Origin: Bacteroidota bacterium
GTDB taxonomy: Bacteria; Bacteroidota; Bacteroidia; Palsa-965
Length of the DNA stretch: 43,650 nucleotides
Direction: 5' to 3'
NCBI GenBank assembly: GCA_013298545.1
Contig: JAAFIA010000038.1
Location: 1 to 43,650, forward strand
The position numbers and the translations under genes were made by a program. The notes below the pieces were generated by a model that saw nothing but the letters and a program-made list of their open reading frames with translations, made no database searches and was not told the origin of the DNA. Below are positions 12,584-24,957 of this stretch, one piece after another (positions within the stretch are counted from its first letter, which is position 1; every line of letters begins with the position of its first letter).

Positions 12584-12985
12584 ATGATGATAGAAAAATC
12601 TAGACGCGACCAACGCATTTCGGGCATGCGCGAAATGGTTGTTTTCAATGCCGAATTGGCTCAATGCGAGGAACGCTTTCAGGGCGAAGTTTTACGCCCC
12701 GTGCTCAAATTGCAAAACGATCTAATCATCAGCCTTGTCAAGCATTACCTCAAACGCAAAGGCGATAAATTTCATCACTTACCCGAAAATGATTGGCGCG
12801 AGCAAGTCAGCGATGCCCTTAAAAACGATCACGTTTTTCGCACACAACTTACGGGTTTAGTGATTGGTTTGTTTACGGTTGCCGAAATGGAAGAATTTTT
12901 AGAAAATCAAGAAGCATATAAACGCCGTTTGCAAAGTTTGTTGATTGAACGTGTGGTTTCGCAACGACCGAAAATAGAGGGCTAG
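12584..12985 (+). CDS. Small conserved-looking protein of unknown function
   Basis: A 133-residue protein, mostly predicted alpha-helical from its Glu/Arg/Leu pattern, with no signal peptide, no membrane segment and a single cysteine. I do not recognise the family. The start is ambiguous: ATG at 12584 or 12587 follows an AT-rich stretch, while an in-frame TTG at 12557 would add nine residues and is less likely. It lies 62 bases after nth on the same strand and may be co-transcribed. Its stop TAG (12983-12985) overlaps the stop of the convergent photolyase gene in the palindrome CTAG. The C-terminal segment TVAEMEEFLENQEAYKRRLQ looks like an amphipathic helix or short coiled coil. Confidence 0.7.
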   Translation: MMIEKSRRDQRISGMREMVVFNAELAQCEERFQGEVLRPVLKLQNDLIISLVKHYLKRKGDKFHHLPENDWREQVSDALKNDHVFRTQLTGLVIGLFTVAEMEEFLENQEAYKRRLQSLLIERVVSQRPKIEG

Positions 12986-14526
12986 AGCGTATTGATCGTG
13001 TTTAAGTAATGCGTTGCCTGTTTGATTAAGGCTTGCTGTTCTTCGTGTGGAAATTTATCCCAAGTAACATACGCCATACCAATGCGCGGATTTTTTTCGA
13101 GCAGCTTTCGGTTCTGCTGATAAAAATTCCAATATAAACTATTGAACGGACAAGCGCGCTCGCCATGTTTTTTCTTCCGATCGTAAAAGCACGTTTTGCA
13201 ATAATTGCTCATCTTATCGATGTAGTTTGAGGACCCTGCATACGGTTTTGTGCCTACAATACCACCATCGGCAAATTGGCTCATCCCTCGCGTGTTGGGC
13301 ATTTCTACCCATTCAAGGGCATCGATATAAATGCCCAAGTACCACGCATCAACCTCATTGGGATCAATTCCAGCCAGTAGCGCAAATGCACCCGTTACCA
13401 TGAGCCGTTGAATGTGGTGTGCGTACGCTTCGTTGAGCGATTGACCAATAGCCTGTTTCAAACAATTCATCTGCGTTTCGCCATTCCAAAACCAACTTGG
13501 GAGCGAACGTTTGGCATTGAAAAAATTGAGCAGGGCATATTCCGGCATCTCAGCCCAATAAATTCCGCGTACATACTCGCGCCAGCCCGCAATCTGCCGC
13601 ACAAATCCTTCGACTTGTGCAATCGAAATATACTCTTGATTTTTTTGCCAAGCCGCAATGGCCGCTTCGCACACCTCTGCTGGCGAAATGAGTTTGATGT
13701 TTAACGCAAACGAAAGACGCGAATGAAATAAGAACGGCTCTTGCACACTCATCATATCTTGATATTGCCCAAAATACGGCAATAAAAATTCGCAGAAATG
13801 CGCCACAAGCCGCAACGCATCTGCGCGCGTTGTGGGCCAATTTAAATGTGTGCCATTTTGTTTACCAATGGTCTGAATACCCTGCTGTGCAATCAGTTCA
13901 AGCAGATCGCCAATCGGGTAGCTGGTGTCTGGAATTGGAGGCGGATGCACATTGGCTTTGAAACCACTTCTATTTTCAGCATCATAATTCCAACGACCCG
14001 TCAGGGGTTCATTCCCTTGCATCAAATAGCCTGTTTGCCTTCGTATCATCCGATAAAACGATTCCATCAAATACGTTTTCTTTCCCTCAAAATGATTTTT
14101 CAATGTACTGCGCGTAGTCAAAAAATGCTCGCTCTCTACAACACTTACCGGAATGTTTAAGACCGTTTCCAATTCTTGCAATTCACGATCCAACCGATAT
14201 TCGTCTGGATATTGGTATGCAATGGATTTTGCTTGGTACTGTTGTTTTAATTGCTCCAGGTTGGCCGTAAAATTTTGCTTGTTTTCAACGGCATCGAGTT
14301 TGATGTAGTGAACGCGATGCCCCTTGTTTTCGAGCCATGAAGCAAATTGCCGCATGGCCGAAAAAAACGCTAGAATTTTTTGAATATGATGCACCACATA
14401 ATCCGTTTCCGAACGGATTTCCATGAGTACATAAACTACATGGTCTTCTTTTTTAGAAAACCAAGAATGCTTGGCGTTGAGCTGATCGCCAAGAATCAAG
14501 CGCAATTGAATCGGAGTGGTACTCAT
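12982..14526 (-). CDS. Iron-sulfur bacterial cryptochrome / (6-4) photolyase (PhrB type)
   Basis: This 514-residue protein belongs to the deoxyribodipyrimidine-photolyase-related family, whose characterised member PhrB repairs (6-4) photoproducts with FAD, a 6,7-dimethyl-8-ribityllumazine antenna and a 4Fe-4S cluster. The N-terminus RLILGDQLNAKHSWF is diagnostic. The cluster ligands are visible as Cys355, Cys443, Cys446 and Cys459; their spacing (88, 3 and 13) equals that reported for Agrobacterium PhrB (350, 438, 441, 454). The motif HHIQRLMVTGAFALLAG (about 370-386) holds the conserved His-x-x-x-Arg-Leu-Met of the FAD/lesion pocket. It is the last gene of the photolyase operon, and its ATG overlaps the SRPBCC stop by 4 bases, which implies translational coupling. 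Confidence 0.95.
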   Translation of the reverse strand: MSTTPIQLRLILGDQLNAKHSWFSKKEDHVVYVLMEIRSETDYVVHHIQKILAFFSAMRQFASWLENKGHRVHYIKLDAVENKQNFTANLEQLKQQYQAKSIAYQYPDEYRLDRELQELETVLNIPVSVVESEHFLTTRSTLKNHFEGKKTYLMESFYRMIRRQTGYLMQGNEPLTGRWNYDAENRSGFKANVHPPPIPDTSYPIGDLLELIAQQGIQTIGKQNGTHLNWPTTRADALRLVAHFCEFLLPYFGQYQDMMSVQEPFLFHSRLSFALNIKLISPAEVCEAAIAAWQKNQEYISIAQVEGFVRQIAGWREYVRGIYWAEMPEYALLNFFNAKRSLPSWFWNGETQMNCLKQAIGQSLNEAYAHHIQRLMVTGAFALLAGIDPNEVDAWYLGIYIDALEWVEMPNTRGMSQFADGGIVGTKPYAGSSNYIDKMSNYCKTCFYDRKKKHGERACPFNSLYWNFYQQNRKLLEKNPRIGMAYVTWDKFPHEEQQALIKQATHYLNTINTL

Positions 14527-14990
14527 TTCATGTTGCCGAAAATTTCTTTCAAAACATGAAAGCGATAATCAAAAATACCTTCCAATTTTTTGCGCACAAA
14601 AATGGCATGCGCAAGTGTTCCCAAAAAGCCAAGCGGCAATTTGTAATGAATCAAATCGCGCATCTCAATTCCACCCGGAATCGATTTGATGTAATGTTTA
14701 TGATGCCAAAACGCATAAGGCCCAAATCGTTGTTCATCAATAAAAAAATCGGGCTTTACGGCTTGCCGAATTTCGGTCATCCAAAACATGGGAATGTTTA
14801 AGACTGGGCGCACCGTGTAGGTAATAATTTGTCCGGCATGAACAGGCTCGTCGGCATTTCCCGAAGTGATTTTAAAATCCATATCGGGTGGCGTAATGCG
14901 GTTGAGATTTTTGGGCGATGAAAAAAAAGCCCATGCTTCTTCTGCTGTAATGGGTAGTTTCTGAAAACGTTCGATGGTGTAAACAGGCAT
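14523..14990 (-). CDS. SRPBCC (START-like) ligand-binding family protein
   Basis: A 155-residue cytoplasmic protein with the pattern of the SRPBCC helix-grip fold: an N-terminal YTIERFQKLPITAEEAWAFF helix entry, PKNLNRITPPDMDFKI, central beta strands, and a long C-terminal helix (about 125-155). Such proteins bind small hydrophobic ligands in a deep cavity. Its position between cryptochrome DASH (3-base gap) and the (6-4) photolyase (4-base overlap) suggests it serves that system, for example in chromophore or cofactor handling; this is inference. No catalytic residues can be assigned. Confidence 0.85.
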   Translation of the reverse strand: MPVYTIERFQKLPITAEEAWAFFSSPKNLNRITPPDMDFKITSGNADEPVHAGQIITYTVRPVLNIPMFWMTEIRQAVKPDFFIDEQRFGPYAFWHHKHYIKSIPGGIEMRDLIHYKLPLGFLGTLAHAIFVRKKLEGIFDYRFHVLKEIFGNMK

Positions 14991-14993
14991 AAT

Positions 14994-16430
14994 TTAGTGT
15001 GTTGTAGCGATGAATGAGCAAACAGGTCTTGGATAATCTGTTCCGAGTGTAAGCCCCAATTGGTGAATTGTAGTTTCTGAGTATTCAAAAAAGCGATGCA
15101 AGTATCGTGGTGGAATTTCGTGCAATTCTGGACACCAGTATTTCATAAACTCGCCATGCGTATCGTAGCGTTCGCTTTGGGCGGCTGTATTGAAAAAACG
15201 GTCTTTGCGTGGGTCGTTGCCCACACCTGCAATGTAACACCAATTTCCCCAATTGCTGCAAGGATCATAATCGATTAACTGCGATTCAAACCACGCTGCT
15301 CCAATGCGCCAATCTTGTTGTAGCACATGCACAAAGAAACTGGCTACGTTTTGACGGCCACGGTTAGACATAAATCCTGTATGTCGCAATTCGCGCATGT
15401 TGGCATCAATAAACGGAAATCCGGTTTGCCCTTCGCACCACGATTTTTCGAGCAATTTATTTTCGATGAGTTGAGGTGCAATATTTTTAATTCCGCCCAG
15501 TTTAAAAAATTGTGCGCCATATTTGAGTGTCGCAAAACGAAAATAATCGCGCCAAAGCAATTCGAAGATTAACCAATAGGTAGATTTATTTTTCAGTCGT
15601 GTAGCTTCAAAACGTTTTACTTCTGAAAAAATAAAGCGCGGCGAAATACATCCAAGTGCAAGCCAAGGCGAGAGTTTGGACGAGTAATCTTCGCCAAGCA
15701 TGCCGTTTCTAGTTTCTTCGTATGTTGCAATCCATTCTTTTTGCCAGATGTATTGGTTGAGGTGATCGATTGCTGCTTGTTCGCCACCGACAAATTTTTT
15801 AGCGGCGCGTTGGTCTGTTTGAATTTCAGGATAGGGTGGAAATTGATTTTCAGCGATTGCTTGTTGTGCGTTGGCGGGTAGGGTGGGTAAGTGCGTGGGG
15901 GCGGGGAGGGGTGGCGTATGGTTCCAGTTGCGTTCTACTTGCACCCGAAATTTTGTAAACACATCAGGTAGTTGTGGAATGCTGAAAGGCAAATCTTTTT
16001 TAGCACAAAGCGTCGATTGCCACCAGGAGTCGAACAAAATTCCATGATGAATCAAGGCTTCTTGTAGTTGCTGTTCAATGGTTCGTTCTTCGGGTGCAGC
16101 TTCTTCTGAAAAGTGAATGTGTTTGACGTTTAATTGTTTTGCTAGTTCGGGTAAAACATGTTCTGGAAAACCAATGCGAACGAGCAAATCGCTTCCGATG
16201 TGTTGCAGATTACGTTGCAAATCGCGCACCGACTCGATCAGGAATTTTAAACGAAATGCACCCATTTTGGGAAAACCAAACGACTGTGCTTGAAAAAAGC
16301 GCGGATCAAAAATATAGATTGGAATAACGTGTTCAAATTTTCGGTTGGCCTCGCACAAGGCTTCCTGATCGTGTAAACGCAAATCGTTGCGAAACCAGAC
16401 TAAAACAGATTCTTTACGCATACTGTTCAA
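14994..16430 (-). CDS. cry: Cryptochrome DASH / photolyase-family flavoprotein
   Basis: A 478-residue photolyase/cryptochrome homologue of the DASH class, which binds FAD plus methenyltetrahydrofolate and repairs cyclobutane dimers mainly in single-stranded DNA. The N-terminal antenna domain starts VLVWFRNDLRLHDQEAL. The FAD domain shows EDYSSKLSPWLALGCISPR, the DASH-typical NRGRQNVASFFV (about 377-388), DWRIGAAWFESQLIDYDP and NWGNWCYIAGVGNDPR. Translation may begin at 16430 or at the second Met (16421), the latter placing the conserved strand in the usual position. It lies 10 bases after the DUF2256 stop and 3 bases before the SRPBCC start, firmly within the operon. The folate antenna makes the upstream folE functionally meaningful. 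Confidence 0.95.
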   Translation of the reverse strand: MNSMRKESVLVWFRNDLRLHDQEALCEANRKFEHVIPIYIFDPRFFQAQSFGFPKMGAFRLKFLIESVRDLQRNLQHIGSDLLVRIGFPEHVLPELAKQLNVKHIHFSEEAAPEERTIEQQLQEALIHHGILFDSWWQSTLCAKKDLPFSIPQLPDVFTKFRVQVERNWNHTPPLPAPTHLPTLPANAQQAIAENQFPPYPEIQTDQRAAKKFVGGEQAAIDHLNQYIWQKEWIATYEETRNGMLGEDYSSKLSPWLALGCISPRFIFSEVKRFEATRLKNKSTYWLIFELLWRDYFRFATLKYGAQFFKLGGIKNIAPQLIENKLLEKSWCEGQTGFPFIDANMRELRHTGFMSNRGRQNVASFFVHVLQQDWRIGAAWFESQLIDYDPCSNWGNWCYIAGVGNDPRKDRFFNTAAQSERYDTHGEFMKYWCPELHEIPPRYLHRFFEYSETTIHQLGLTLGTDYPRPVCSFIATTH

Positions 16431-18488: not shown

Positions 18489-18510
18489 GGCGCGTTGTTT
18501 TTTGTTGAAG

Positions 18511-18545
18511 CAAAGGTATGCAAACATTAAACAAACGACCAAGTA
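18511..18545 (-). promoter_or_regulatory. Putative Bacteroidota promoter for the ECF sigma factor operon
   Basis: On the minus strand TACCTTTG (plus 18511-18518) fits the TAnnTTTG -7 consensus. About 20 bases upstream lies TTGG as a candidate -33 element. Transcription would start near 18505, leaving a leader of about 16 bases before the ATG at 18488. Confidence 0.5.
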
Positions 18546-18756
18546 TTTGTTGAACTATTTTGTTAAAAAGATAAACAAAAAAGCCTAAATAGTTGATAAT
18601 CAAGCCAATTTGTTTTATCTTTTTATTTAAAGATTAAACAAAAGGTCGAATTTTAGTCTTCTTGGTTCTTGTTGCGATGTGGTAGGAATAAAAAAACGCT
18701 GAAAAATAGACACAAAAGCATCTTTCCCCAACGTTTAACGAAAATCCAGAATAATT

Positions 18757-18818
18757 CAAAAAAGAGAGCGGAGAAAGAGTGCGGAGTGCGGTAATCAACG
18801 CACTCTTTCTCCGCTCTC
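18757..18818 (-). terminator. Terminator of the arginine decarboxylase gene
   Basis: A perfect 20-base inverted repeat (18764-18783 and 18799-18818, core GGAGAAAGAGTGCG) with a 15-base loop, followed on the minus strand by TTTTTT (18758-18763). It begins 38 bases after the stop of the decarboxylase gene. The 367-base gap 18489-18855 otherwise holds only the sigma promoter and AT-rich sequence. Confidence 0.85.
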
Positions 18819-18855
18819 CGCTCTAATACGACCGTCTGTGTTTATTAATCGAAAT

Positions 18856-20259
18856 CTAATATCCCAATGTTTTCAACATCGATTTAAAACTTTGCTCTTT
18901 TGCAAACAAACGTGTTGTAATTTCTCCATCCTCATTGCGATCAATCAAGACATGTTTGGGCGCAGGAATTAAACAGTGCTGAATACCGCCATATCCGCCA
19001 AGCGATTCCTGGTAGGCTCCTGTGTGAAAAAATCCAATGTATAATGGTTCTTTTTCATTGGACGAAACCTTCGGCAAAAACACATTGTTGGCATGCGCTT
19101 CTGTATTGTAATAATCCATGCTATCGCAGGTAATACCGCCCAGATTCACCGTTTGGTACTCGCGTTCCCAATGATTGATCCCAAGCATAATAAAACGCTG
19201 ATTGATGCCCCACGTATCGGGCAAAGTTGTGATGAACGAACTATCAATCATATACCACAACTCGCGATCGTTTTGCAATTTCTGATCAATAATCGAATAC
19301 AAAGCCGCACCGCTTTCGCTCACCGTGAAAGATCCAAATTCGGTAAAAATATTTGGCTCTGGAATATCGTTGTTATCGCAGAAATTTTTGATTTGCGATA
19401 CAATTTCCTCAATCATGTATTCATAATCGTACTCAAATCCCAACGACGTTTTTATCGGCATGCCACCACCAATGTTGAGTGAATCCAATTCGGGACAAAT
19501 CTTCTTCAATTCGTAATATACTTTCAAGCACTTGGCCAACTCGGTCCAATAATAAATCGTGTCTTTAATGCCCGTATTGATGAAAAAATGAAGCATTTTC
19601 AACTCAAAACGTGGATTGTCTTTGATCTTCGTTTTATAGAACTCCGCAATATCTTTATCGCGAATACCCAAACGCGAAGTATAAAACTGAAAATTCGGTT
19701 CTTCTTCAGACGCAATGCGAATGCCTAATTTAACTTTTGGAGCTTTTGCATTCTTGGCATAATACTCAATCTCGCTCATGTTGTCGAGCACCGGAACAAC
19801 ATTAAACCCATCGTTGATCAACTCTGTAACCAACTGCTGATACGGTTTACGCTTGTAACCGTTGCAAACAATAAAATTGTTTTTGTCAATCTTTCCCTGC
19901 TTATATAAATCTTTGATGATGTGAATGTCATACGTTGACGAGGTTTCCAAATGCACTTCGTTTTTAAGAACTTCTTCGAGTACGAAAGAAAAGTGACTAC
20001 TTTTGGTGCAGTAACAATACGTGTACGTTCCTTTATAATCAACTTTGGCCATGGCTACGTTGAACCAACGCTTGGCTTTCTGAATCTGAGAACCAATTTT
20101 GGGTAAATAGGTAATTTTGAGCGGTGTGCCATATTTCTTGATAATATCCATCAATGGAATATCACAGAAATGTAGTTCGCCTTCAGTAACGTGAAACCCT
20201 TCTTGGGGGAAATTGAACGTTTGCTCAATCAGGTTCTGGTAAGTATTCTCCATGGACAT
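18856..20259 (-). CDS. speA: Arginine decarboxylase (fold III, Bacteroidota type)
   Basis: A PLP enzyme that decarboxylates arginine to agmatine, the entry to polyamine synthesis. The 467-residue protein is shorter than Escherichia coli SpeA (about 658) but matches the Bacteroidota alanine-racemase-fold type. Likely PLP lysine is Lys86 in YCYCTKSSHF; the phosphate loop is GGGMPI (264-269); the catalytic Cys378 lies in GGITCDSMD. The start could be ATG 20259 or 20253 (MENTYQN); the two are equally plausible. It is transcribed divergently from arginase, with a palindromic operator-like sequence in the shared promoter region, and ends at a strong terminator. Substrate specificity is inferred from family resemblance, and ornithine or lysine cannot be formally excluded. 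Confidence 0.85.
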   Translation of the reverse strand: MSMENTYQNLIEQTFNFPQEGFHVTEGELHFCDIPLMDIIKKYGTPLKITYLPKIGSQIQKAKRWFNVAMAKVDYKGTYTYCYCTKSSHFSFVLEEVLKNEVHLETSSTYDIHIIKDLYKQGKIDKNNFIVCNGYKRKPYQQLVTELINDGFNVVPVLDNMSEIEYYAKNAKAPKVKLGIRIASEEEPNFQFYTSRLGIRDKDIAEFYKTKIKDNPRFELKMLHFFINTGIKDTIYYWTELAKCLKVYYELKKICPELDSLNIGGGMPIKTSLGFEYDYEYMIEEIVSQIKNFCDNNDIPEPNIFTEFGSFTVSESGAALYSIIDQKLQNDRELWYMIDSSFITTLPDTWGINQRFIMLGINHWEREYQTVNLGGITCDSMDYYNTEAHANNVFLPKVSSNEKEPLYIGFFHTGAYQESLGGYGGIQHCLIPAPKHVLIDRNEDGEITTRLFAKEQSFKSMLKTLGY

Positions 20260-20317
20260 GGTCGAAAAGCAGGTTAAGTGAATGTAAACGAAGTGAGTTA
20301 CTTTAATAATTCGGATA

Positions 20318-20349
20318 CAAATGTAAGTTACTTACATTAATCATACAAT
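20318..20349 (-). promoter_or_regulatory. Putative promoter of the arginine decarboxylase gene
   Basis: Reading the minus strand, ATTG (plus 20346-20349) is followed after 20 bases by TACATTTG (plus 20318-20325), a match to the Bacteroidota TAnnTTTG -7 element with a near-consensus spacer. The start would be near 20311, some 50 bases before the ATG. Confidence 0.55.
20320..20338. promoter_or_regulatory. Palindromic operator-like sequence between divergent arginine genes
   Basis: AATGTAAG-TTA-CTTACATT is a perfect 8-base inverted repeat around a 3-base centre. It overlaps the -7 box and spacer of the arginine decarboxylase promoter and lies 28 bases before the arginase ATG. A half-like sequence AATGTAAACG occurs at 20281-20290. 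Size and placement suit a dimeric repressor or activator that would control both genes, for example one sensing arginine or ornithine; the regulator is not in the window. Confidence 0.55.
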
Positions 20350-20365
20350 CAAAAAGGAGGCCAAT

Positions 20366-21319
20366 ATGAGAGCCATTAAAAAATTAAAGTTTATTGAGGT
20401 CAAATCCGAAATCGGAGCAGGCACACGCGGAGCCAGTTTAGGGCCAGATGCAATTCGTATTGCTGCGCTTGATTATGGTAGTAATCTGTTCCGACAGTTT
20501 GAGAATATTGAAGTCAAGAACGAAAACCACTTACTTTTTGAACCTCAAGGTAGTCTTTATGCAAAACGTGCTAAAGGATTGATTACCATGTATGAGCGTA
20601 TTTCATCGGAAGTGAGTAAAGCACTTAAAGCAAATTATTTCCCCATCGTTTTAGCGGGCGATCACAGTACTGGCGGAGCTACAATCGCTGGTGTTCGCAT
20701 GGGCTGCCCTGCTAAAAGTAGAATCGGTGTTATTTGGATTGATGCACATGCCGATTTGCATTCTCCTTATACAACACCGTCTGGAAATATGCACGGAATG
20801 CCATTGGCCATCGCATTAAGCGAAGACAATAAATCCAATCAGATCAATAAACCCGATAAAGAAACCATCGAAAACTGGGCAAAACTCAAAGCTATTGGTG
20901 GAAATGGATCGAATATTCGCTATGACGACCTCGTTTACATTGCCCTCCGCGATGTTGAACCGGAAGAAACGGCTTTGATTAAAAACAATAAGATCAAAGT
21001 CATGACTACTGCCGAAGTGAAACGCCACGGGGTAGAACGCATTGCCCGCGATACACTCGCTTATTTGAAAGATTGTACCCATATCTATATCTCGTTTGAC
21101 GTAGATAGTATGGACTCTTCCATCTCTAAAGGAACTGGTACACCCGTACGCAATGGCATTACCGAAAAAGAAGCCGGATCGTTACTTGCGCGCTTGATCC
21201 AAAACGAAAAAGTAGTCTGTTTCGAGATCTGTGAAGTCAATCCGACACTCGATAAAGAGAACTTAATGGCCGAAAACACCTTCGAAATTCTTCAAAAAGT
21301 AGTCAGCCAACTGACTTAA
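20366..21319 (+). CDS. Arginase family protein (probable arginase)
   Basis: A 317-residue ureohydrolase with both manganese-binding motifs: GDHSTGG (about 98-104), WIDAHADLHSP (about 127-137) and SFDVDSMDSS (about 239-248). The segment PSGNMHGMPLA is the arginase-type signature; agmatinases have a different motif at this position. It would hydrolyse arginine to ornithine and urea, though formimidoylglutamase or agmatinase activity is not excluded. The ATG is preceded at 20355-20360 by a strong AGGAGG Shine-Dalgarno, unusual for this phylum. argS begins 7 bases after its stop, so the two share a transcript, and the decarboxylase gene diverges from it. Confidence 0.87.
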   Translation: MRAIKKLKFIEVKSEIGAGTRGASLGPDAIRIAALDYGSNLFRQFENIEVKNENHLLFEPQGSLYAKRAKGLITMYERISSEVSKALKANYFPIVLAGDHSTGGATIAGVRMGCPAKSRIGVIWIDAHADLHSPYTTPSGNMHGMPLAIALSEDNKSNQINKPDKETIENWAKLKAIGGNGSNIRYDDLVYIALRDVEPEETALIKNNKIKVMTTAEVKRHGVERIARDTLAYLKDCTHIYISFDVDSMDSSISKGTGTPVRNGITEKEAGSLLARLIQNEKVVCFEICEVNPTLDKENLMAENTFEILQKVVSQLT

Positions 21320-21326
21320 AACTGAT

Positions 21327-23114
21327 ATGCAAACACTCGAATCGCTCCTTTCTGGAGCCGTAGCTCAGGCAGTTCAAGCCGTTTTTAACAAAACCATTGA
21401 CCCCGCCTCAGTTGTTTTTCAACAAACCAACCCCCAATTTGAAGGCGATACGACCCTTGTTGTCTTCCCGTATGCCAAAGCCGCAGGCAAAAATCCGGAA
21501 GAAGCCGGAAAAATGCTTGGCGAATACTTGCAAGCACACATTGCCGATGTCGAATCGTTCAATGTTGTTAAAGGATTTCTCAATCTTGTTATTTCCAACC
21601 GTTTTTGGATGGCTAATTTTATAGAAGCCAGTCAAAACGAATCCTTCGGAACTGTTGCACCAACACCCGAAAGTCCATTGGTTGTTGTTGAATACAGTTC
21701 GCCCAATACGAACAAACCCTTGCATTTGGGCCACGTGCGCAACAACTTGCTTGGCTATGCAGTAGGCGCTTTGCTTCAAGCAGCAGGCAATCATGTTAAA
21801 CTTGTCAACCTGGTCAATGATCGTGGCATTCATATCTGTAAGAGCATGTTGGCCTGGCAGAAACTTGGCAACGGCGAAACGCCCGAATCATCCGGCATGA
21901 AAGGCGATAAGCTCGTAGGCAAGTATTATGTCGAGTTTGATAAACATTACAAAGCAGAAATTGCAGCACTCCTTGCCAACGGAAAAACGCAAGACGAGGC
22001 CGAAAAGCAAGCTCCGATGATGACCGAAGCACAAGAAATGCTGCGTCAATGGGAAGCCGGAAATCCTGAAGTGAAAGCCCTTTGGGAAAAAATGAATGCT
22101 TGGGTGTATGCCGGATTTGAAAGCACGTACAAAGCGATGGGCGTGCGTTTCGATAAGTTTTATTACGAATCGCAAACCTATTTACTCGGAAAATCGATTG
22201 TTGAAGAAGGCTTGCAATCAGGCGTTTTGCAAAAACGTACAGACGGTGCTGTTATTCTCAATCTTACCGCCGAGAAACTCGATCAGAAAGTCTTGTTGCG
22301 TAGCGATGGCACTTCGGTTTATATGACACAAGATTTGGGAACAGCGGTAGAACGCCGGAAAGAATTTCCGTTTCAAAAACACATTTATGTAGTAGGCAAC
22401 GAGCAAGAACACCATTTCAAAGTGCTCAAAATTGCGTTAGCAAAATTGGGCCATGCTTGGGCCGATGGGCTGCATCATTTATCGTACGGCATGGTTGAAT
22501 TGCCCGAAGGAAAAATGAAATCGCGCGAAGGAACCGTTGTTGATGCGGATGATTTGATTGCATCTATGGAAGCTGAAGCATTTGCTTTGATTGAAGAAAA
22601 AGGCATTGATAAAGACATGGCAACTGCCGAGAAAGAAAAACTCGCGCATCAAATTGGTATGGCTGCGCTCAAGTATTTCCTACTCAAAGTAGATCCGAAG
22701 AAGAAAATGATGTTCAACCCCAAAGAGTCTATCGACTTGCAGGGAAATACAGGACCGTTCATCCAATACACGGTTGTGCGTATTCGTAACATCTGGCGTA
22801 AATCTGGATTGACGGCGTTGCCAGCATTTCCGGCAACTGTAACCGTTCATCCAAAAGAAAAAGAATTGCTCAAATTACTCGATCAGTTTCCTGCCGTGAT
22901 TCAAAATGCCGCTGCCAATTACAGTCCAGCAGTAATGGCTATGTATTGTTACGATTTAGCAAAAACATTCAATCAGTTTTACGATTTGCACGATGTCTTG
23001 CATGAAACCAATCAAGATATGCAGCATTTCCGTATGGTTTTAATCAAACGTGTAGCCAATGCTATCGAAATGGGTATGGCCATGTTGGGCATTGAAATGC
23101 CAGAGCGGATGTAA
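21327..23114 (+). CDS. argS: Arginyl-tRNA synthetase
   Basis: A 595-residue class I aminoacyl-tRNA synthetase that charges tRNA-Arg in the cytoplasm. The HIGH-equivalent is PLHLGHVRNN (about 131-140), after the typical EYSSPNTNK lead-in. The KMSKS region is degenerate, ELPEGKMKSREGTVV (about 391-405), as usual in ArgRS. The C-terminal DALR anticodon-binding domain ends with FRMVLIKRVANAIEMGMAMLGIEMPERM. An insertion after residue 190, rich in Lys/Glu and Ala, matches the usual bacterial size. It is the second gene of the arginase operon with a 7-base gap and is closed by a strong hairpin terminator. Linking arginine charging with arginine breakdown is uncommon. Confidence 0.97.
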   Translation: MQTLESLLSGAVAQAVQAVFNKTIDPASVVFQQTNPQFEGDTTLVVFPYAKAAGKNPEEAGKMLGEYLQAHIADVESFNVVKGFLNLVISNRFWMANFIEASQNESFGTVAPTPESPLVVVEYSSPNTNKPLHLGHVRNNLLGYAVGALLQAAGNHVKLVNLVNDRGIHICKSMLAWQKLGNGETPESSGMKGDKLVGKYYVEFDKHYKAEIAALLANGKTQDEAEKQAPMMTEAQEMLRQWEAGNPEVKALWEKMNAWVYAGFESTYKAMGVRFDKFYYESQTYLLGKSIVEEGLQSGVLQKRTDGAVILNLTAEKLDQKVLLRSDGTSVYMTQDLGTAVERRKEFPFQKHIYVVGNEQEHHFKVLKIALAKLGHAWADGLHHLSYGMVELPEGKMKSREGTVVDADDLIASMEAEAFALIEEKGIDKDMATAEKEKLAHQIGMAALKYFLLKVDPKKKMMFNPKESIDLQGNTGPFIQYTVVRIRNIWRKSGLTALPAFPATVTVHPKEKELLKLLDQFPAVIQNAAANYSPAVMAMYCYDLAKTFNQFYDLHDVLHETNQDMQHFRMVLIKRVANAIEMGMAMLGIEMPERM

Positions 23115-23139
23115 TAAGAAAATAGGTAATCCATTCAAA

Positions 23140-23177
23140 CAAAAAACTCCTGCGAAAATTTTTGCAGGAGTTTTTTG
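23140..23177. terminator. Bidirectional terminator between argS and a convergent gene
   Basis: CAAAAAACTCCTGC pairs perfectly with GCAGGAGTTTTTTG over a 10-base loop. It lies 25 bases after argS and 34 bases past the stop of the minus-strand gene, with A/T runs serving both directions. Confidence 0.9.
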
Positions 23178-23211
23178 TTGTGGGGTTTTACTACTATTCA
23201 ATTTACACTAC

Positions 23212-24957
23212 TTATTCCTCGTCTTTAATAATTTCAACAGGGAATGCTGCTTTGCCCGATGTTGCATGTTGCGATAACATCACGATTTCATCAATGCAAT
23301 ACTCGATCACAATATTTTTATTGCCTATGAATTGATTTTCTTCATCACGCGTGGTTAAGCTAAACTCGCGTGTTTTACAAGAACATGGATGCAAACAATC
23401 GTAGGAAATAAAACGATCAGGAATAATGGTGGCTTGATACGGTTTCGTAGGCATCGGATCAAAACTCACTTTGGTGATGCGGAAGCCTTTAAACTCAACA
23501 TCGCTAAACGGATTGCAAACCGTGATGAAGAAAACTTCGTTGTCGTGGTTTTCGATCACATCGCGTTTGCTATCGCCCCAATGCAAATAGAATACCGGTG
23601 CCAACGTTGCGTTTTCTTTGATGATTGTAGCGCAAGTCATGGGTGTAAATGGCGAGGCATGACCATTCGGATTTGCTGGAACAATATTGGTTTTTACTTT
23701 AGCTTGCTCCAAGAGATCTTTGTCTTGCTCTTCGGCATTTTCGTTGCAACCATCGCAGCCACAATCGCAATCGTCGTGCGGATCGGTAGGCGTATCGGGT
23801 CGGTTAAAACTGGTGATGATGTTGGGTAAGCCCATTACGCCAACTGTTTTCTCGGTTAATTTGACATAATTCAAATCAACAGTTGGTGTTGCAGTATCAG
23901 AATTGATAATAGCAGCCAAGGTATCTTCAAGCGGTTTTACACCATAGATGACATTGTCTGGCCCTAACTGCAAAGCAGCCATGGCAAAGTCCCAGATATT
24001 GTTACTATTTGCAGACGCTGCAGTATAAGTATGAATCGTTTTAGTTTGATTGCTACTAAACTCATATTGGCAAATGCGTGTTGCGAGATTAGAAACCAGC
24101 GCAGTATAGTATAAGTATTTTGAATTTGGAGAAAACTCAACACCATAGGTATTTACAGTATCTTTTATAACAATTTCATTGCTGATTGTACCATTTTGTT
24201 TATCGAAAGTATAAACAGAGACAGAAAATAAATGATAGTTGGCAAGGGCAAGAAGAGTTCCATCTAAATTTGCTTTCATATAGCCAACATTATCAATCTT
24301 ACTATCAGCCCCCTTCGAATCTTTTAAGTCGATATCGCTATGATGAGCAACACCCGAAGCCGTTACTAAAAAAATGCGTAGTGTGCCGGGGCCATTCCAG
24401 TCTCCACTTCGTTGCAAGGCACCAATCACCCAAAAATCAGTTCCATTGGCATGGCGTATTGCTGTCAATTTTTCGGTTGGGATATACCCTTTCTTTTTAT
24501 CGCCCGCTTGAAGCGTTTGAAAAACTGTGGGTACGGTGTAAGCCCAGTTTGCCGTTGCCGTATCCATAAGAATGGCAGAAATCGGTTTAATCAAGTGTTT
24601 TTTTAATGCATCACGATCGGGCGTACCGCTCATGCCATCAGCACTAAAAACATAATATTTTTTCGGATTGCTTGGATTAGGATCAGCTGGGTCGGGAAAT
24701 AAAATGCCGGATTGTGTAGAAGAATGATGTCCGTTTAACACATTGCTGTGTTTCAAATTGTGTTGGCCATCCCAGATGCTTTGTCCGTTGGTGTAGAAGA
24801 GCAAGTTGCCTTGTGCATCGGCAATAGACGCGCATCCTTCATTGGTTTTCATCGCGCTACCCGGAGCACTCGGGAATGCGGTTGGTCTGTTTCCGTTTAC
24901 AGCGGTGCTGAAATCTAGTCCGGCGTTGTTGCCGAAAATCCATTTTGTGTTTTGCAT
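23212..24957 (-). CDS. Beta-propeller-type protein without signal peptide, Cys-rich linker
   Basis: A 581-residue protein. The first 40 residues and the run NEGCASIADAQGNLLFYTNGQSIWD (split here as NEGCASIADAQGNLLFYTNG then QSIWD) match the beta-propeller entry of Bacteroidota surface proteins, and the next 370 residues keep the propeller rhythm (NVGYMKANLDGTLLA, VEFSPNSKYLYYT). Unlike its relatives it has no signal peptide and no type IX tail. It instead has an Asp/Cys linker DDCDCGCDGCNE near residues 406-417 and a C-terminal beta domain with further cysteines (CLHPCSCKT). Either it is cytoplasmic or the true start lies elsewhere; no upstream in-frame extension with a hydrophobic segment is evident. 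It ends near the shared terminator at 23140-23177. Function unknown. Confidence 0.7.
   Translation of the reverse strand: MQNTKWIFGNNAGLDFSTAVNGNRPTAFPSAPGSAMKTNEGCASIADAQGNLLFYTNGQSIWDGQHNLKHSNVLNGHHSSTQSGILFPDPADPNPSNPKKYYVFSADGMSGTPDRDALKKHLIKPISAILMDTATANWAYTVPTVFQTLQAGDKKKGYIPTEKLTAIRHANGTDFWVIGALQRSGDWNGPGTLRIFLVTASGVAHHSDIDLKDSKGADSKIDNVGYMKANLDGTLLALANYHLFSVSVYTFDKQNGTISNEIVIKDTVNTYGVEFSPNSKYLYYTALVSNLATRICQYEFSSNQTKTIHTYTAASANSNNIWDFAMAALQLGPDNVIYGVKPLEDTLAAIINSDTATPTVDLNYVKLTEKTVGVMGLPNIITSFNRPDTPTDPHDDCDCGCDGCNENAEEQDKDLLEQAKVKTNIVPANPNGHASPFTPMTCATIIKENATLAPVFYLHWGDSKRDVIENHDNEVFFITVCNPFSDVEFKGFRITKVSFDPMPTKPYQATIIPDRFISYDCLHPCSCKTREFSLTTRDEENQFIGNKNIVIEYCIDEIVMLSQHATSGKAAFPVEIIKDEE

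Follow-up and report, generated by a model that had tools for sequence, protein, structure and literature searches.

Conserved twin boxes over the speA promoter of many Bacteroidota point to a putative protein switch for polyamine synthesis

In many Bacteroidota the promoter of speA, the arginine decarboxylase gene, is overlain by two deeply conserved palindromic boxes, which points to a putative protein switch for polyamine synthesis and not to a switch shared by three neighbouring genes. Computation over related genomes reveals that these boxes keep a narrow set of spacings, stand in register with the -7 element of speA and are restricted to this gene. Polyamine synthesis is generally tightly controlled. 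Judged from sequence comparison, the two-box element is a predicted speA operator that often lies beside an arginase-argS gene pair.

The locus and its palindrome

The window, i.e. the whole stretch of 43,650 nucleotides that was analyzed, carries speA in divergent orientation to a gene for an arginase-type ureohydrolase, which is followed after a 7-base gap by argS (Table 1). This layout had been proposed in an earlier note on the same DNA, and its gene calls hold. The NCBIfam SpeA models are the top matches for the speA product, with a score under the equivalog cut-off. Between speA and the arginase gene lies an intergenic gap of 106 bp that holds a palindrome. Scans of positions 18500-23400 for sigma-70-type promoters and for terminators gave no more signals than shuffled sequences. 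A Shine-Dalgarno-like AAGGAGG stands directly before the arginase ATG (20353-20365) and was not seen in near relatives whose speA-arginase gaps were inspected; to our knowledge, Bacteroidota are described as being without Shine-Dalgarno-like sequences. Elsewhere in the window (12982-16430, minus strand), genes for a DASH-type cryptochrome and a photolyase-related protein (DPRP) were found close together with a 155-aa ORF between them, and folE and a gene for an ECF-type sigma factor lie nearby.

Table 1 Features of the speA locus, in positions of the window
Feature	Positions	Strand	Description
speA	18856-20259	-	Biosynthetic-type arginine decarboxylase, 467 aa, PLP, alanine-racemase fold group
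Box 1, proximal to speA	20286-20304	.	Degenerate copy AAACGAAGTGAGTTACTTT as the scan gives it; PWM score 15.0
Box 2, distal to speA	20320-20338	.	Perfect 9+1+9 palindrome AATGTAAGTTACTTACATT, the palindrome of the earlier note; PWM score 27.6, top score
speA -7 element	20325-20318	-	TACATTTG (TAnnTTTG), perfect Bacteroidota -7 match, overlaps box 2
Arginase-type ureohydrolase gene	20366-21319	+	317 aa; nearest solved structures are arginases
argS	21327-23114	+	Arginine-tRNA ligase, 595 aa

The palindrome is exact, as had been described; divided as AATGTAAGT-T-ACTTACATT (9+1+9), its symmetry slightly exceeds that of the 8+3+8 division given before. It is the sole perfect inverted repeat in the window with arms of at least 9 bases and a spacer of 0-3. 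A first-order Markov sequence of the window's composition holds a mean of 1.75 such repeats, or 0.5 with a 1-base spacer, so that the palindrome alone is not beyond chance and one window cannot prove function; its meaning comes from conservation. In its own genome the palindrome occurs at one exact place and at 12 others with 3 mismatches, for which a reversed control pattern gave 28, and no further copy was found at 1-2 mismatches. The additional copies near arginine or polyamine genes for which a genome-wide search had been advised were not found. Box 1, absent from the earlier description, lies 34 bp from the palindrome, centre to centre.

Among solved structures, bacterial arginases are closest to the window ureohydrolase (1cev, E 1e-42). 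It scores 217.9 bits against the arginase model TIGR01229, under the cut-off of 227.6, compared to 80 for agmatinase and 88 for formimidoylglutamase. The SGNxHG substrate loop is present: among 167 aligned ureohydrolase loci of Bacteroidota, some of which are the same genome fetched twice, N139 and H141 occur in all 167, and position 137 is S in 142 and T in 25, in a numbering that we take to be that of human arginase. All 167 loci furthermore have His and Glu at the positions of human N130 and D183, presumably contacts to the alpha-carboxyl/amino group. Arginine appears to be the likeliest substrate. The own genome harbours three further ureohydrolase-family genes, one scoring best as agmatinase (156.6 bits, cut-off 174.3) and two formimidoylglutamase-like, so agmatine does not necessarily rely on the window gene. 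A role of the window enzyme as the pathway agmatinase was considered and is less likely, since one of these three has agmatinase as its best-scoring family. No clear AguA, AguB or NspC was found in the own genome, the best E values being 1.6e-16, 2.7e-16 and 5.1e-13, respectively, all far under cut-off.

Conservation of the two boxes and their association with speA

The arginase protein was queried in 59 related genomes, of which 47 matched, and in GTDB contigs, from which the best 80 of 584 relatives were retained. The divergent speA/arginase arrangement is common among the loci (L011-L120). A total of 78 divergent intergenic regions, 71 of them unique, was excised; these were found via arginase alone, without selection for boxes. 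Starting from the window-type palindrome, a weight matrix was refined to the consensus AAWGTAAGTNACTTACWTT, to which 59 of the 71 regions contributed. Boxes scoring 12 bits or more are present in 58 of these 71 unselected regions, on which the single-box matrix was itself trained; the 99th percentile of shuffled regions was 4.6 bits. A second box above 4.6 bits occurs in 42 of the 58, at a distance that was left unconstrained and had no part in the training, and this distance was 33 (30 regions), 34 (9) or 29 bp (3) and took no other value. Spacings of 33 or 34 bp, about three helical turns, are thus found in 39 of the 42 two-box regions, in counts that are not independent events as the 71 regions share descent. 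In four loci (L075, L078, L087 and L092) a 29-bp spacing replaces that of 33/34 bp as a natural variant. The pool was enlarged to 134 unique speA upstream regions, of which 113 carry a box that reaches 12 bits; it is enriched, as 69 of its loci were chosen on account of matches to the two-box model (see below) in their genomes. A second box followed in 85 of these 113 regions, spaced by 33 (70), 34 (11) or 29 bp (3), with one outlier. Relatives that share the gene order thus keep the palindrome, as one half of a two-box pair; such conservation was one of the two points on which the earlier note had staked its proposal.

With at most one mismatch, the 19-mer occurs once each in 10 of the 59 genomes, in all ten cases between speA and a ureohydrolase gene, and its reversed control gave one match each in 4 of the 59. 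A two-box sequence model of 58 positions was run against 395 genomes of the class. At E<=1e-4 it matched just 91 genomes, from 26 families, while speA was detected in 339 of the 395. The best match adjoins speA in all 91 genomes. By coordinates, 83 of these best matches lie at most 141 bp upstream of speA, and none is contradictory. For the remaining eight genomes, in which speA coordinates were missing or no speA match was listed, fetched DNA was inspected directly, and in all eight the box was found next to speA, which in some cases is only partly present at the end of a contig. A wider arginine regulon was considered and rejected: two-box matches off speA (E>=0.0018) do not recur near related genes, as judged from matches inspected by gene (G000:C91, G014:C50, G035:C154 and G027:C8) or by score only (G042, G044:C19, G050 and G031:C28). 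Single-box scores of 15-20 are expected by chance a few times per 4.5 Mb.

It had been proposed that three fates of arginine are packaged with one operator, i.e. that speA, arginase and argS are placed under common control by one regulator acting at the palindrome. The boxes indeed lie between divergent promoters, arginase being divergent from speA in 100 of the 113 box-bearing regions, with argS behind it in 69 of those. However, the boxes are kept at speA in genomes whose arginase gene does not adjoin speA or lies elsewhere (G052, G014, G035 and G009; four of four), and among 32 arginase loci without a speA match in the fetched stretch, none of the 31 that could be scored had a box within 300 bp upstream (best score -1.4 bits). 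An arginase-directed -7 element, moreover, is rarely in box register (5/113). Joint control of the three genes through this site is considered unlikely. As the two-box element stays with speA where speA and arginase part, the idea of three fates under one operator fails in general; what stands of it is a likely operator, conserved with the gene order and placed over the decarboxylase promoter, whose boxes track speA. The divergent partner across the boxes varies and includes arginase-argS, argS alone, carbamate kinase-OTC, CtlX and others. In two loci (L195 and L232) it is a gene that we take, from its sequence, to encode a PnuC-like transporter.

Linkage of argS to arginase, which had been called unusual, turned out to be a common arrangement in Bacteroidota, found in 34 of 53 divergent loci and in 69 of the 113 box-bearing regions. 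Pedobacter and Daejeonella display the same gene order, with a speA product 53% identical. Pedobacter resembles the window in the genes and orientation of speA and arginase-argS, but in both genera the region upstream of speA is without boxes. Gene order and operator are therefore separable, as boxes occur without an adjacent arginase and this order occurs without boxes. For divergent gene clusters this means that genes can remain neighbours across relatives without being regulated together. In L108 and G002 (L034) arginase breaks off at residue 286, and from the very same base argS sets in at its residue 38; this junction resembles a joining deletion or could reflect an assembly error.

Promoter register and proposed mechanism

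The Bacteroidota -7 consensus is TAnnTTTG, according to the available part of the source (PMC9723704). The palindrome covers a perfect speA-directed match to it (Table 1), in line with the overlap with the decarboxylase promoter reported earlier. An exact speA-directed TAnnTTTG was found at or near a box in 57 of the 113 regions, at one fixed offset in 53 of the 57. Many regions are without an exact match; with at most one mismatch the fixed-offset element is present in 78 of the 113. Where a region has both boxes together with an exact -7 element, that element falls within the proximal box alone in 18 cases, the distal box alone in 18 and both in 3, so that the box array has no single fixed position relative to the promoter.

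It is considered probable that the two-box speA operator is bound by a putative dimer-forming protein which represses the speA promoter by feedback. We infer the existence of this protein and its oligomeric state, as well as the repression, the ligand and any effect on arginase-argS. The putative DNA-binding protein, acting in trans and most probably a symmetric dimer that assembles into a tetramer or higher oligomer, would bind both 19-bp palindromic boxes cooperatively, about three turns apart and roughly on one face of the helix. Since one box covers the speA -7 element, protein bound there would exclude RNA polymerase, and arginine decarboxylase would be repressed. The role of speA suggests that the enzyme would be under feedback, with the arginine level, agmatine or a polyamine as the signal. 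Effects may extend to the genes on the other side, arginase-argS in this case, because their promoter shares the same ~110 bp, with the element itself dedicated to speA. Most simply, the data are read as steric hindrance at speA, whose repressor would touch both boxes from nearly the same side of the helix; the helix-phase dependence predicted by this reading is directly testable. Against this operator model, 33-34 bp correspond to 3.1-3.2 turns and not to exactly 3, and one clade has 29 bp. The varying position of the -7 element, proximal or distal, counts against simple single-site occlusion, which would prefer a fixed position.

The flanks of 53 loci revealed no recurrent DNA-binding gene, with clusters judged by sequence starts. 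A Fur-like gene lies downstream of speA, with CtlX across the operator, in family f4 (L151, L202, L217, L219 and L230); it follows speA in this family only and was rejected as the regulator for lack of recurrence. In a single genome a gene for a LysR-type regulator (L224:2047-2970) immediately precedes speA, beside the boxes; it was rejected for the same reason.

The protein on the boxes might instead be an activator that recruits RNA polymerase to speA. Lrp-type regulators can activate, as stated in the accessible part of PMC2995911, and in some lineages, namely in the 18 regions with the -7 element in the proximal box only, a box without a -7 element is located upstream of it. However, wherever an exact in-register -7 element exists a box lies on the element itself, which is unusual for an activator, and in 18 regions the second box lies downstream of it. 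Activation is accordingly regarded as improbable. Still less should be expected of a reading in which the palindrome serves chiefly as a core promoter for both directions, the symmetry of two opposed -7 elements being what is conserved, and not a repressor. TACATT is present on both strands of the palindrome, and promoters built on sequence symmetry have been described elsewhere as bidirectional promoters. But the speA-directed TAnnTTTG stands at the fixed offset in 53 regions and its mirror, pointing away from speA at the symmetric offset, in only 5 of 113, and the palindrome is therefore not simply two back-to-back promoters. This reading also does not account for why a second box stands 33/34 bp away, why the inner AAGTNACTT is conserved and why the best two-box matches adjoin speA in all 91 genomes, and it is very improbable. 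That the palindrome is a functionless product of chance, with 0.5 perfect 9+1+9 repeats expected in a window of such composition, is refuted by its conservation over 26 families, its fixed spacing and best matches at speA only, and is given practically no credence.

Comparison with known regulator systems

For the predicted repression of speA through twin boxes, a search of the literature outside full texts found neither a description of the two-box element nor one of a speA regulator in Bacteroidota. The available part of PMC9007349 treats only CtlX, arginase and lactose genes elsewhere, and not the two-box element. With best matches at a single gene over 26 families, the element is a precise bait for capturing its regulator.

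ArgR/AhrC control arginine genes through ARG boxes, which are paired palindromes as well. We take these to differ from the speA boxes in sequence and spacing; the consensus AAWGTAAGTNACTTACWTT fails the TGAATww..wwATTCA-type palindrome, which is presumably the ARG-box consensus. Among the 59 genomes ArgR (PF01316) was found in three (G043, G049 and, weakly, G056), none of them with a strong two-box match, and the own genome is without ArgR. The speA box sequence presumably also differs from the NrdR consensus, and NrdR (TIGR00244) gave one weak match in the 59 genomes, in G043 only, and none in a box-bearing genome. Both proteins are excluded as regulators because they are absent from the box-bearing relatives among these 59 genomes.

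Closer likenesses exist in architecture. Operators of Lrp/AsnC-type regulators consist of regularly spaced palindromic sites with centre-to-centre spacings of two or three turns, and these regulators are often linked to amino acids and act as repressor or activator, as far as the available part of PMC2995911 goes. The speA boxes share such spacing of palindromic sites, but differ in that the element is dedicated to one gene and no Lrp-type gene was found linked at the locus. For NrdR, binding to a box pair is best when a whole number of helical turns, commonly three, separates the two centres, according to the part of PMC12051234 that was available. The likeness to the speA boxes, i.e. two palindromes with centres about three turns apart, is one of architecture only; the helix-phase-dependent repression of a narrow set of biosynthetic genes by NrdR provides a design analogy, with the difference that the target here is speA. 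The parts of the speA two-box system are of known kinds. It is quite possible, if held with some reserve, that many Bacteroidota without ArgR possess a dedicated, undescribed repressor that would have speA as its sole target, sense polyamines or arginine and bind twin palindromes three turns apart, in an NrdR-like design.
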